Source: Epibacterium sp. Ofav1-8 (lineage in GTDB: Bacteria > Pseudomonadota > Alphaproteobacteria > Rhodobacterales > Rhodobacteraceae). Taken from it: a DNA stretch of 64,000 nt. The DNA lies in NCBI RefSeq assembly GCF_022348185.1, contig NZ_JAKRFD010000003.1:124001-188000 (forward strand), read 5' to 3'. Positions 12,637 through 44,566 of the stretch are shown here, piece by piece. The translations under genes were made by a program, and so were the position numbers. Numbering within the stretch: the stretch's first letter is position 1; the number at the start of each line of letters is the position of its first letter. Below the pieces are notes generated by a model. That model was not told the origin of the DNA, did not search any database, and saw only the letters and a list, made by a program, of their open reading frames with translations.

Positions 12637-12752
12637 CAGCCGGTCCCCGCTGGGGACCGGCTGCGGCGCCACGCATCGCGCGGCGCCCGGCCCAACCGCA
12701 AGGTGTTGCCCTGCCTGTGCAGGGCGGCCCGCGTGGGCGGGAGGGCCCCCGT
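12637..12752 (-). repeat. Structured intergenic repeat, copy A (reverse orientation)
   Basis: Read on the minus strand it has the same parts as copies B-D: an arm GGGGGCCCTCCCGCCC (12735-12750), a 7-bp hairpin (12708-12725), a GGTTGGGCC linker (12689-12697) and a 10-bp hairpin (12665-12687, one G-T pair). A further 12-bp perfect hairpin (12637-12663, loop GCT) lies beyond. It fills most of the 327-bp gap between pabC and aspS, which otherwise holds no recognisable gene. Confidence 0.65.
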
Positions 12753-12906
12753 CCCCCTGCGGTGGTGCGAAACAGGGCGATCAGGACGCTCAATTGGCCC
12801 GGTTTGCTTGACAAGACCGGTCGAACCCTGTGTACGGGTGCGGATGAATTTTGCCCGGCGCTGATGCCCCGCATCGCGCCAGCCGCAGCCGAGAGAGACC
12901 AGATCC

Positions 12907-17008: not shown

Positions 17009-17077
17009 CACCATCCCTGACGATCCGGTGATTGCCGTCGCCCCGCGCGGGTCTCGGCGCGTGGAGGCGAGACGGAC

Positions 17078-17292
17078 GGGGAGGCTCCCGCCCGTTGGCC
17101 CGGTCTGGCACAGACCAGGCCGCCCGTTGGGCCCTGCGCCGGTCCTGGCGGACCGGCGCAGGGCGCCAGGATCGGACTTGGGCATGCCCTCGCCACCGGC
17201 GCATCCGCCGCGCCCCGCCAGGGGCGCGGCCGGGCCCAAGGCTGATTGGGTCGCATCTGTGATGCGGCGCACAGGCGCGGGAGCGCCCCCGG
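17078..17292 (+). repeat. Structured intergenic repeat, copy B
   Basis: Left arm GGGGAGGCTCCCGCCCGTTG (17078-17097), a small hairpin (GGTCTG / CAGACC, 17102-17116), the linker CCGCCCGTTGGGCC (17120-17133) and a perfect 15-bp hairpin with a TGGC loop (17131-17164). The right end carries GGGCCCAA (17233-17240) and the closing arm GCGGGAGCGCCCCC (17277-17290). The outer arms can pair, giving a multibranched fold. It occupies the whole 308-bp gap between the DUF1467 gene and the EI24-type gene. Confidence 0.7.
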
Positions 17293-17316
17293 TGCCAGGC
17301 AGCCGGGGACCTCCGG

Positions 17317-32620: not shown

Positions 32621-33220
32621 ATGACTGAGATCTTAACGTTAAAACAACGCATTGCTGCATGTCGCATTTGTGCGGACCGGTTTGCTGCCACGGCAACCGC
32701 GCATGCGCCGCGGCCGGTGGTCTGGTTCGATCCCGGCGCGCGTATCCTGATTGCCGGACAGGCGCCGGGGCTTCGCGTGCATGAAAGTGGTAAACCCTTT
32801 ACGGATGCGTCGGGGGATCGTCTGCGGGATTGGCTCGGGCTGGACGCCGAGCAGTTCTACGACCAGCGTCGGGTGGCGATCGTGCCGATGGCCTTTTGTT
32901 TTCCGGGCTATGACGCCGGGGGGTCCGATCTGCCGCCGCCGCGGATCTGCGGCGCGACCTGGCACGGTCAGGTGATGGCGGAGCTGGAGGAGATCCGCCT
33001 GCGCATCATCGTGGGCGGGCATGCTCACCGCTATCACCTCGGCACCCGCAAGGGCGTGACGGAGGTTGTTCAGGCCTGGCGCGACCTGCCCGAGGGGGTC
33101 TTTGCCTTGCCTCATCCGTCGTGGCGCAATACGGCTTGGCTGAATCGAAACCCCTGGTTCGAGGCGGAACTGCTGCCGGTTCTGCGCGCCCGGGTGAAGG
33201 AGCAGATGCAAGATGACTGA
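32621..33220 (+). CDS. Uracil-DNA glycosylase-family protein
   Basis: UDG-superfamily protein of 199 residues. The N-terminal CRICADRF segment has two cysteines, where family 4 enzymes bind an Fe-S cluster, but only these two are near. The active-site region is ILIAGQAPGLRVHESGKPF (equivalent to GEAPG-x-x-E-x-x-x-G-x-P-F), and the late motif is LPHPSWRNTAWLNRNPWF, in place of HPSPA. These substitutions place it in a divergent uncharacterised branch, so glycosylase activity is not certain. Its stop overlaps the SseB-like gene start by 8 bp, indicating an operon. Confidence 0.8.
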   Translation: MTEILTLKQRIAACRICADRFAATATAHAPRPVVWFDPGARILIAGQAPGLRVHESGKPFTDASGDRLRDWLGLDAEQFYDQRRVAIVPMAFCFPGYDAGGSDLPPPRICGATWHGQVMAELEEIRLRIIVGGHAHRYHLGTRKGVTEVVQAWRDLPEGVFALPHPSWRNTAWLNRNPWFEAELLPVLRARVKEQMQDD

Positions 33221-34004
33221 GATGACCCCGCTGGATCTGGCCCATGCGGCGATGGAGGCCGCGCCCGAAGACGACGCGGCGCGGTTGCGGTTCTTTGAGC
33301 GGCTGGCCGATTGCGAGCTGTTCATCCTGCTGGACAAGGAACCCGAAGGGGATCGCATCAGCCCGGAGATCTTTGACACCGGCGAGGGGCGTTTTGTGCT
33401 GGTGTTCGACCGCGAGGAGCGTCTGGCGCAGTTCGCCGATCGGATCGTGCCCTATGCGGCGCTGTCGGGACGGGTGATCGCCGCGATGCTGGCGGGGCAG
33501 GGGATTGGTCTTGGGGTCAATCTTGAGGTCGCGCCCTCGTCGATATTGATCCCGGATGCGGCGATGGGGTGGCTGGCGGAGACCCTGTCGCATGCCCCGG
33601 GCGAGGTGGAGGCGGCGATATCCGAAGTGCGCCCGCCGCAGGGCTTGCCGGAGGTGCTGTTGACGGCGCTGGATGCCAAGCTGGCCACCTCGGGCGGGCT
33701 GGCCAAGATGGCCTATCTGGCGGCGGTGACCTACGAGGGCGGCGGCAACGGCCATTTGCTGGCGTTCGTCGGGGCCCGCCCCGGGTCCGAGGGTGCGCTG
33801 GCCAAGGCTGTGGGGGAGGCGTTGACGTTCTCCGGCATCGAGGCCGGAGCACTGGACGTCGGGTTCTTTGCCGCCCGCGACGAGATCTCCGCACGCCTGT
33901 CGCGGGTCGGGTTGCGGTTCGACCTGCCGGAGCCCGCATCCGCGCCAACACATGCCCCACAGATGCCGGGCGCGGATCCGGCCAAGCCCCCGCGCTTGAA
34001 ATAA
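33213..34004 (+). CDS. SseB-family protein
   Basis: Soluble protein of 263 residues. The N-terminal domain fits SseB_N: LDLAHAAMEAAPEDDAARLRFFERLADCELFILL, then RFVLVFDREERLAQFA and GVNLEVAPSSILIP. The C-terminal domain (about 135-240) includes LLTALDAKLATSGGLAKMAYLAAVTY and GALDVGFF, like the SseB C-terminal domain. The end is Pro-rich and disordered. It overlaps the UDG-family gene by 8 bp. SseB-type proteins are of uncertain function outside sulfur-transfer annotations. Confidence 0.8.
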   Translation: MTEMTPLDLAHAAMEAAPEDDAARLRFFERLADCELFILLDKEPEGDRISPEIFDTGEGRFVLVFDREERLAQFADRIVPYAALSGRVIAAMLAGQGIGLGVNLEVAPSSILIPDAAMGWLAETLSHAPGEVEAAISEVRPPQGLPEVLLTALDAKLATSGGLAKMAYLAAVTYEGGGNGHLLAFVGARPGSEGALAKAVGEALTFSGIEAGALDVGFFAARDEISARLSRVGLRFDLPEPASAPTHAPQMPGADPAKPPRLK

Positions 34005-34023
34005 CCATGGAGCGTTGACAGCG

Positions 34024-34203
34024 GCGGGGGGGGCTCCCGCCCGTCGTCGGATCATCTGCATGATCCGCTCCCGTTGGGCCGGGCGCCGGGCCTGTCGGCC
34101 CGGCGCGGCCTCCAGCCCCGAATGGGGCTGGAGGCTGGGCCCAACGCTGCCAGGGGGATCTGCCGCAGGCAGGGCACCCGCAGGGGCGGGAGCGCCCCCG
34201 TCC
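34024..34203 (+). repeat. Structured intergenic repeat, copy C (fullest copy)
   Basis: An outer arm GGGGGGGCTCCCGCCC (34025-34040) pairs with GGGCGGGAGCGCCCCC (34184-34199). Inside are an 8-bp hairpin CGGATCAT-CTGC-ATGATCCG (34048-34067), the linker CTCCCGTTGGGCC (34068-34080), a 10-bp hairpin GCGCCGGGCC-TGTC-GGCCCGGCGC (34083-34106) and an 11-bp hairpin around CCTCCAGCCCC (34109-34134). A GTTGGGCC / GGCCCAAC pair (34073-34080, 34138-34145) encloses the last two. It takes up most of the 337-bp gap between the SseB-like and yghU genes. Confidence 0.72.
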
Positions 34204-34280
34204 CTGGTGCCGCGACGGTGAATGCTGCCTTGATCCCGCTGTTCTGGCTCGGCTCCGTACCGTTCAAAAAACCGCCGCTC

Positions 34281-34341: not shown

Positions 34342-35214
34342 TTACTCGGCCGCTTCGAGCTTGTCCTGTGTCTTGGTGTCGAAGTCCTCTGCCGCGTGGC
34401 GTTCGTGCAGCTGCGAGGACAGCTCGCCAAAGACGCGGTTCACCATGCGGCCGCGCTGGACGGCCGGGCGGGCATCAATCGCCTTGGCCCACCGCATGAC
34501 GTGCTCATAGCTCTCCACATCGAGGAACTCTGCCGCATTGTACTGCCGGCCCAGAACCAATTGGCCATACCAGGGCCAGATCGCCATATCGGCAATCGTG
34601 TAGTCCTCGCCGGCGATATGGGTTTTGGTCGCCAGTTCCCGGTTCAGCACATCCAGCTGACGCTTGACCTCCATGGTGAACCGGTTGATCGGGTATTCGA
34701 ATTTCTCCGGCGCATAGGCGTAGAAATGGCCAAACCCGCCGCCCAGATAGGGGGCGGAGCCCATCTGCCAGAACAGCCAGTTCAGAACCTCGGTGCGCGC
34801 GCTGCCCTCCTTGGGCAGGAAGTGGCCGAACTTCTCGGCCAGATGCATCAGGATCGACGCACTTTCGAACACCCGGACAGGCTCTGCGCCGCTGCGATCG
34901 AGCAGCGCGGGGATCTTGGAATTCGGGTTGATCTCGACAAAACCGGAGCCGAACTGATCGCCGTCGCCGATCTTGATCAGCCAGGCATCATATTCCGCCT
35001 CCTTGACGCCCGCGGCCAGCAGTTCTTCCAGCATCACCGTGACCTTGACGCCATTGGGCGTTGCCAGGGAATAGAGCTGGAAGGGATGCGCGCCCACCGG
35101 CAGATCCTTGTCATGGGTGGCGCCGGCTATGGGGCGGTTGATGGAGGCGAACTGGCCGCCGCTTTCCTGCTCCCAGGTCCAGACCTTCGGAGGGGTATAG
35201 GTCGAATCGCTCAT
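34342..35214 (-). CDS. yghU: Glutathione S-transferase-like disulfide-bond oxidoreductase (YghU type)
   Basis: GST Nu-class protein of 290 residues. It begins with the YghU-type N-terminal extension (YTPPKVWTWEQESGGQFASINRPIAGATHDK), then the thioredoxin-like domain (HPFQLYSLATPNGVKVTVMLEELL; NPNSKIPALLD; VFESASILMHLAEKFG) and the helical domain (EDYTIADMAIWPWYGQL). Characterised relatives bind two glutathiones and reduce disulfides. The ATG at 35214 is chosen because the extension begins directly after it. Single-gene unit. Confidence 0.93.
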   Translation of the reverse strand: MSDSTYTPPKVWTWEQESGGQFASINRPIAGATHDKDLPVGAHPFQLYSLATPNGVKVTVMLEELLAAGVKEAEYDAWLIKIGDGDQFGSGFVEINPNSKIPALLDRSGAEPVRVFESASILMHLAEKFGHFLPKEGSARTEVLNWLFWQMGSAPYLGGGFGHFYAYAPEKFEYPINRFTMEVKRQLDVLNRELATKTHIAGEDYTIADMAIWPWYGQLVLGRQYNAAEFLDVESYEHVMRWAKAIDARPAVQRGRMVNRVFGELSSQLHERHAAEDFDTKTQDKLEAAE

Positions 35215-43531: not shown

Positions 43532-44458
43532 ATGAACCATTTCCTCGACATCCATAAGACCTCCCCCGACGACCTGCGGCAGATCATCGACCATGCCGCG
43601 CAGATGAAATCCGCGCGCGCCGGCCGCCCCAAGGGCACGCCCGACGACGACCAGCCGCTTGCGGGGCGCATGGTGGCGCTGATCTTCGAAAAACCCTCGA
43701 CCCGGACCCGGGTGTCGTTCGACGTCGGCGTGCGCCAGATGGGCGGCGAGACCATGGTGCTGTCGGGCAAGGACATGCAGCTGGGGCACGGCGAGACCAT
43801 CGCCGATACCGCCCGCGTCATGTCGCGCTATGTGGATCTGATCATGATCCGCACCTTTGACGAGACGGTGCTGACCGAGATGGCGGAATATGCCGATGTG
43901 CCGGTGATCAACGGTCTCACCGACCGCACCCACCCCTGCCAGATCATGGCCGACATCCTCACCTATGAGGAGCATCGCGGCCCCATCAAGGGCAAGAAGG
44001 TGGTCTGGACCGGGGACGGCAACAACGTCTGCGCTTCCTTCATCCATGCGGCCGGGCAGTTCGGCTTTGACCTCACGTTTACCGGCCCGTCGCAACTGGA
44101 CCCGGAGGAGGAATTCATCGGTCTGGCGCGCAAGGCCGGTGCCACCATCTCCATCGAACGCGACGCGGCCAAGGCCGTGGCGGGCGCCGATCTGGTGGTG
44201 GCGGACACCTGGGTGTCGATGCATGACAGCCAGTCCTCCAAGGAGCGGCGCCACAACATGCTGCGGCCCTATCAGGTCAATGATGCGCTGATGGCCCACG
44301 CCAAGCCCGATGCGCTGTTCATGCACTGCCTGCCCGCGCACCGCGAGGAGGAGGTGACCTCGGCGGTGATGGACGGGCCGCAGTCGGTGATCTTTGACGA
44401 GGCCGAGAACCGTCTGCATGCGCAGAAGGCGGTGATGCGCTGGTGTCTCGGCGTCTGA
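43532..44458 (+). CDS. argF: Ornithine carbamoyltransferase
   Basis: Makes citrulline from ornithine and carbamoyl phosphate. The 308-residue protein has the carbamoyl-phosphate motif STRTR (56-60, in [15 protein letters not shown]), [14 protein letters not shown], the ornithine-side [10 protein letters not shown] and the signature [11 protein letters not shown]. The ATG at 43532 starts the usual MNHFLDIH. It shares an operon with argD and uses the product of CarB (7-10 kb). A structured repeat (copy D) follows rather than a terminator. Confidence 0.97.
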
Positions 44459-44479
44459 TTCACCGGCACTGACAAGACC

Positions 44480-44566
44480 GGGGCGGGGGCGCTCCCGCCC
44501 GTTGCGCCTGCATGTTCATGCAGGCCCGCCCGTTGGGCGTGGCGCCGGGCCTAGCGGCCCGGCGCG
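44480..44566 (+). repeat. Structured intergenic repeat, copy D (left half)
   Basis: Arm GGGGGCGCTCCCGCCCGTTG (44485-44504), a 9-bp hairpin GCCTGCATG-TT-CATGCAGGC (44506-44525), the linker CCGCCCGTTGGGC (44526-44538) and a 10-bp hairpin GCGCCGGGCC-TAGC-GGCCCGGCGC (44542-44565). The last stem is identical to that of copy C except in the loop. The closing right arm seen in B and C is absent. It lies directly downstream of argF. Confidence 0.7.

Follow-up and report, generated by a model that had tools for sequence, protein, structure and literature searches.

What kind of sequence holds its joints constant, lets its stems change, and still keeps those stems paired? Four places, A to D, raise this question in a stretch of 64,000 nucleotides from Epibacterium sp. 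Ofav1-8, which we call the window. An earlier reading made from the letters of the window, the sequence-only reading, described four copies of a dispersed structured repeat there, all lying after genes, and suggested mRNA-end, REP-like or small-RNA roles. The four copies are where that reading put them and all carry the outer arm CTCCCGCCC. The linker it took to be fixed differs in A, where it is CGGTTGGGC; the other three copies have CCGTTGGGC. The arms it quoted for the first hairpin (hp1) are correct, and by eye each pairs with its partner: GCCCTGC/GCAGGGC in A, GGTCTG/CAGACC in B, CGGATCAT/ATGATCCG in C and GCCTGCATG/CATGCAGGC in D. The second hairpin (hp2) also has the lengths it gave, 15 bp in B and 10 bp in the other three, with one G.T pair in A.

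The four copies are real, but four is too small a number: they make up six half-elements of a genome-wide family with about 100 copies. A half-element is laid out as GGGG-N-CTCCCGCC (the head), a variable hp1, GTTGGGCC (the joint), a few nucleotides and a variable hp2, and a third hairpin (hp3) often follows, ending in AAAC(A)CCTC or similar. We built a covariance model, R1, from an ungapped alignment of 22 Ofav1-8 copies with a 33-nt hp1, picked for equal length from 90 copies that match a strict pattern; the left half of copy B is among them. In the window R1 matches six half-elements with E < 1e-4, and the next best match has E 0.55 (Table 1). B and C each consist of two oppositely oriented R1 matches and so are inverted pairs of one half-element. 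The sequence-only reading had B and C close with a matching arm. Both do end in GCGGGAGCGCCCCC, but this is really a second, inverted half-element and not a mere arm.

Table 1. Half-elements of copies A to D and neighbouring genes, in window positions
Feature	Position	Strand	Evidence
Copy A, hp2 and hp3	12637..12688	-	sequence, folding
Copy A, single half-element core	12689..12757	-	R1 match 29.8 bits, E 8.9e-5
Copy B, left half-element core	17071..17133	+	R1 match 70.3 bits, E 1.7e-13; among the 22 R1 training sequences
Copy B, right core, inverted; variant joint CCTTGGGCC, head CTCCCGCG	17233..17297	-	R1 match 34.8 bits, E 7.3e-6
SseB-like gene upstream of copy C; ends 16 nt before the element core	33213..34004	+	own gene caller, Pfam SseB
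Copy C, left half-element core	34020..34080	+	R1 match 52.2 bits, E 1.3e-9
Copy C, parts of left core: GGGG..CTCCCGCC head, hp1, GTTGGGCC joint	hp1 34048-34055 pairing 34060-34067	+	sequence
Copy C, centre between the inverted halves: hairpins GCGCCGGGCC/GGCCCGGCGC and GCCTCCAGCCCC/GGGGCTGGAGGC	34081..34137	.	sequence, folding
Copy C, right half-element core, inverted	34138..34206	-	R1 match 38.8 bits, E 1e-6
Glutathione S-transferase-like gene downstream of copy C, convergent	34342..35214	-	own gene caller, Pfam
Ornithine carbamoyltransferase-like gene; copy D core starts 20 nt past its end	43532..44458		Pfam OTCace
Copy D, single half-element core	44478..44539	+	R1 match 52.6 bits, E 1.1e-9
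Copy D, hp2 (GCGCCGGGCC TAGC GGCCCGGCGC)	44540..44566	+	sequence

Half-elements occur singly or as inverted pairs. The heads of B and C point outward with hp2 and hp3 inside (tail-to-tail), and at a further site, E, heads abut head-to-head in several genomes, GGCGGGAG running directly into CTCCCGCC. A relaxed pattern gives a downstream partner to 20 of the 90 strict-pattern copies, at least one of these partner matches being doubtful (L075). Beneath hp1 the head GCC might pair with the joint GGC, which would bulge out GTT. The letters concerned are invariant in the 22-copy set, and the putative outer GGGG/CTCCC hairpin is nearly so. Among single copies of the Ofav1-8 genome there are many (e.g. 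L028, L037, L078, L085, L087) in which hp1 and hp2 vary and a third hairpin, GTCGCTTCGGGC(NNN)GCCCGAAGCGAAAC, stays nearly constant after hp2.

R1 gives 103 matches at E<=1 in the Ofav1-8 genome, with 150 of 2819 first-look candidates scored. Simple patterns lead to much the same number. CCCGCC-N15..44-GTTGGGCC matches the genome 94 times against 14 for its reversed control, and the stricter form with CTCCCGCC matches 90 times against 0. These 90 copies count the halves of a pair separately and leave out copy D, whose joint is GTTGGGCG.

The idea of fixed joints with changing but pairing stems would fail if hp1 did not covary beyond chance, or if the stems were plain copies of each other. Neither is the case in the 22-copy set. 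The covariation score of hp1 is 0.368 against 0.097 in shuffled alignments (sd 0.017), and no shuffle out of 500 reaches it. Scores of this sort may be inflated by shared ancestry, as the aligned copies are paralogues. Double-changed cells number 46 against 13.2 when shuffled, all of them within two hp1 helices, and 90.9% of cells pair against 75.8%. Sliding the partners by 1-3 columns lowers the score to 0.141 or less. The count of pairs changed on both sides is 7, which is unremarkable (92/500 shuffles). Mean pairwise identity of the 33-nt hp1 is 0.42, against a composition expectation of 0.27, and its maximum is 0.79; the stems are not copies of one sequence. All 90 strict-pattern copies have an hp2 stem of at least 8 bp starting no more than 8 nt from the joint, compared with 28 of 90 at a control position 500 nt on, and in 72 of the 90 the fold of hp1 is better than that of its mononucleotide shuffles (z < -1).

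The same picture is found at single sites followed across species. Four loci were compared across as many as 18 genomes of the genus, Ofav1-8 itself among them; C and D were taken as given, and E and F were chosen for lying in the same region. Element copies stand at the same locus in many species of the genus. The left half at site C is present in 12 of 18 genomes, with an interrupted one in G316. Its hp1 is CGGATCAT/ATGATCCG in Ofav1-8, GGATCAC/GTGATCC in G225, GCTTTT/AAAAGC in G790 and G787, and CGTTTT/AAAACG in G248. Despite these differing letters the predicted hp1 stack is at least 6 bp in 10 of the 12 genomes, and 5 bp (L188) and 4 bp (L192) in the others. Site D has a predicted stack of at least 6 bp in four of six copies and one of 5 or 4 bp in two. 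Matched copies in two related genomes of another genus tell about shorter spans: paired sites changed in 48 of 854 cases (5.6%) and unpaired sites in 28 of 420 (6.7%), and the changes include 3 compensatory, 26 wobble-type (18 A.C, 8 G.T) and 16 disruptive ones. The stems of site C remain paired though divergent while short-term change is nearly equal, so the constraint is visible over long spans and not over short ones. Site F of G780 (L352, C100:14900-16000) has an hp3-type hairpin alone, GGTCGCTTCGGGC..GCCCGAAGCGAAACC, and this looks like the relic of a decayed element.

The sequence-only reading placed all its copies after genes, and across the genome the family does lie mostly by gene 3' ends. 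Genes were called with a self-trained codon-pair caller, which agrees with Pfam on the strand of 7 of the 8 genes flanking A to D. None of the 90 strict-pattern copies overlaps a called gene. Convergent gaps hold 47 of them, tandem gaps 20 and 17 (in either orientation), divergent (promoter) gaps 5, and 1 is unassigned. In 67 cases the head-side gene is directed toward the copy, and in 49 of these it ends 15-55 nt from CCCGCC. In a comparison of gaps drawn from the window and from loci around elements, which makes the background a local one, convergent gaps make up 46 of 85 with an element against 17 of 129 without (P 2e-10), and divergent gaps 5 of 85 against 52 of 129 (P 5e-9). The relaxed pattern used for this and for the terminator comparison below keeps a few false element calls (L348, L361 and probably L196). 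A seeming all-plus run in two genomes turned out to be an effect of listing, as the full lists are of mixed orientation; we therefore drop a bias by replication strand. A defence-gene scan of three flanking genes gave no match.

Do the copies stand in for terminators? At the gene ends CL and DL, 1 of 18 element-bearing ends has a T-run terminator within 150 nt of the stop codon, against 11 of 18 element-free ends (P 0.0009; 18 genus genomes). With six gene ends pooled, 20 of 61 element-bearing ends have a terminator ahead of the element, and 28 of 45 element-free ends have a terminator (P 0.003). Part of this contrast is a matter of space: where the element starts 20-50 nt past the stop codon, a terminator would not fit upstream of it. 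Other genes keep their own terminator with the element beyond it: EL in 11 of 13, CR in 4 of 13, ER in 3 of 13 and FR in 2 of 4. The element is thus not generally a replacement. Some copies stand at a terminator's place and others beyond one. General terminator replacement holds at CL and DL, does not hold at EL and holds only partly at CR, ER and FR, so we reject it as a rule. Within the Ofav1-8 genome 28 of 127 element-bearing ends have a T-run terminator, compared with 33 of the 90 others (convergent P 0.047, tandem P 0.23).

We believe the family is probably, though far from certainly, a REP/BIME-like non-coding repeat of roseobacter-type Rhodobacterales, and that its stop-abutting copies are putative two-way transcript boundaries. 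A copy abutting a stop codon would present strong hairpins to transcripts from either side and could act by termination or attenuation, or by protecting the mRNA 3' end. In relatives without the copy the same gene has an intrinsic terminator, and the copy would stand in for it. If pairing is kept while the letters are free, the hairpin itself would be what matters. The fixed head and joint might be kept as recognition sites, or as ends used in past spreading by a putative factor. The element is perhaps a 3'-end hairpin, and it may help to mark the ends of messages.

A possible but less probable view is that the element is a nonautonomous mobile repeat, with hairpins recognised as single-stranded DNA by an HUH/RAYT-type or other transposase, that 3' gaps merely tolerate it, and that it has no job in the cell. 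Its distribution speaks for this, being patchy within one family of Rhodobacterales: among 390 genomes of the order, all numbered as one family, 94 show one or more matches, spread over 39 of 139 genera, and an R1 search under stricter filters is positive in 22 of 149 genera. Single matches are partly chance, since reversed controls give 0-3 per genome; the genus of Ofav1-8, with 7 genomes in the 390-genome sample, has 19-90 matches per genome. In a sample of the class, 10 of 289 genomes match, namely Ofav1-8, one other of the family and 8 from outside it with one match each, like the controls. At least 116 stretches in named genomes match a strict pattern, and among the matches listed are Tritonibacter, Epibacterium, Tropicibacter, Falsiruegeria, Ruegeria, Phaeobacter, Pseudophaeobacter, Leisingera, Tropicimonas, Mangrovicoccus, Rubricella and others. 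The laboratory strain Ruegeria sp. TM1040 has a copy on its megaplasmid, flanked by a YqgE/AlgH gene and an aspartate carbamoyltransferase gene. A record titled Nocardioides marinus DP1N28-1 has two copies (L251, L252) amid alphaproteobacterial-looking genes. The nearest listed relative of the genes around L251 is a roseobacter-type plasmid (69.5%), and the record is probably a mislabelled or contaminated assembly.

A mobile repeat would also account for the inverted and mosaic arrangements, the avoidance of divergent gaps and the weak short-term constraint. A second full inverted pair in the Ofav1-8 genome (G000:C5:27321-27503) is about 79% identical to window positions 34020-34206 over nearly the full length, which means that whole pairs have been duplicated; this too fits mobility. 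The Ofav1-8 genome contains no Y1_Tnp (RAYT) gene, and among 149 genomes, 15 of them with RAYT, the gene is present in 4 of 22 element genomes and 11 of 127 others (P 0.24, taking both 149-genome samples as the same genomes). RAYT is thus not supported as the mobiliser. Viral contigs gave 0 matches to one strict pattern, which leaves spread by phage without support. The stem at site C also counts against a repeat with no function, as it diverges and yet keeps its stack in most genomes, which plain decay would not lead one to expect.

An IS110-family sequence interrupts the site C copy in G316 (L197, C37:1-1300), at the G|TT of the joint or right beside it. It is 83% identical to an annotated one, and its transposase frame ends prematurely. 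We see the left border directly and deduce the right one from where the match ends. We do not take this as targeting of the element by IS110, because four related plasmid IS copies (L366-L369, of 22 matching records) have another left-border sequence. Insertion sequences that land in REPs are known, according to the part of PMC1525189 drawn on here.

Spread and use could also be combined. A putative factor other than RAYT might bind the CTCCCGCC head and the unpaired joint GTT beside any hairpin of the right length and so spread the element by its shape, the host having adopted copies as two-way transcript ends. We consider this rather unlikely.

Is the element instead a structured RNA that works on one strand, as a 3'-UTR element or sRNA? 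We find this improbable, even though the strong covariation would suit it. The fold does seem to have a direction: whichever way the neighbouring genes point, the reverse strand of hp1 gives the better fold, in 80 of the 90 Ofav1-8 copies, in 84 of 94 copies from named genomes (drawn from 80 of the at least 116 named loci) and in 26 of 33 from another genus. Mononucleotide shuffles, however, also show a strand asymmetry, 133 against 53 of 190, so base composition explains part of it. Composition-corrected wobble tests in four sets give P 3e-4, 0.04, 0.08 and 0.85, and a strict in-helix count of G.T against A.C gives 44 to 62 (P 0.10). We have accordingly downgraded a decisive strand polarity of the hp1 fold to a hint only. 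A strand-specific form of the mRNA-end or small-RNA roles offered by the sequence-only reading is not supported, for a further reason: in tandem gaps the element shows no orientation bias, 20 copies running with the genes and 17 against them. Rfam has no match at gathering score in the window, and its 21 matches to copy C, with E up to 5, all fall below that score.

Quasi-palindrome correction, an established mutational mechanism in which polymerase template switching rewrites one hairpin arm, would give the observed paired stems with freely drifting sequence by mutation and not selection, but we hold it to be very improbable as it leaves the fixed head, the joint and the gene-end position unexplained, and the 16 disruptive against 3 compensatory changes between relatives indicate that correction is not fast.

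How does the putative boundary repeat compare with known systems? Like an intrinsic terminator it places a strong GC hairpin just past a stop codon. Unlike one, it has no T-run after the hairpins of copies A to D (one related copy, L187, has TTTT after hp2), it has fixed flanking motifs, and it forms a dispersed family. The attC sites of integrons have a GTTRRRY-like core beside a hairpin conserved in structure, at gene 3' ends, with a complementary RYYYAAC box. The element resembles them in having a GTTRRRY-like core next to a hairpin kept in structure by gene 3' ends, but its copies are dispersed and not in cassette arrays. The attC explanation is rejected since the RYYYAAC box opposite GTT is absent; by eye the arm there is GCC followed by CGT, CCT, TGT, AAA or others. 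Bradyrhizobium, which has repeats of its own, belongs to a bacterial order other than Rhodobacterales. Its Br-REP1 and Br-REP2 are described, in the part of PMC5082802 used here, as alphaproteobacterial 3'-UTR repeats at about 200 sites, the first one found having three stem-loops between convergent genes. The element shares with them the host class and the gene 3' side, but the Bradyrhizobium repeats as given there have a fixed stem consensus, CCGGAATCTCGAGATTCCGG, unrelated in sequence to ours. No description of such a repeat in this bacterial group was found in the open literature searched.

The closest comparison is with REP and BIME sequences, and here the sequence-only reading, which had called the repeat REP-like, was right. 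The sections of PMC2817692 we rely on describe these as short palindromic intergenic repeats of high copy number and alternating orientation that form composite mosaics, and link them to transcription termination. The element is likewise a short palindromic intergenic repeat, with 90 strict copies and inverted or composite arrangements. In the REPs listed in those sections the stem hardly varies, a 5' GTAG/GTGG-type tag is present, and the association with RAYT is described as obligate. The feet of our hairpins are CTCCCGCC and GTTGGGCC, with no tag of that type. Since the layout is REP/BIME-like and the constant stem, the tag and RAYT all fail, we regard the element as a REP/BIME-like variant and not as a member of a RAYT-REP family. 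What is new relative to the REPs covered by those sections is that the joints, including GTTGGGCC, are constant and the stems free, with no RAYT link found. With up to about 100 copies per genome, these marine bacteria show how one structural role can be filled by many stems that arose independently, and the family would allow one to test cleanly if repeats of this kind benefit the cell, in 3'-end formation, or only themselves.
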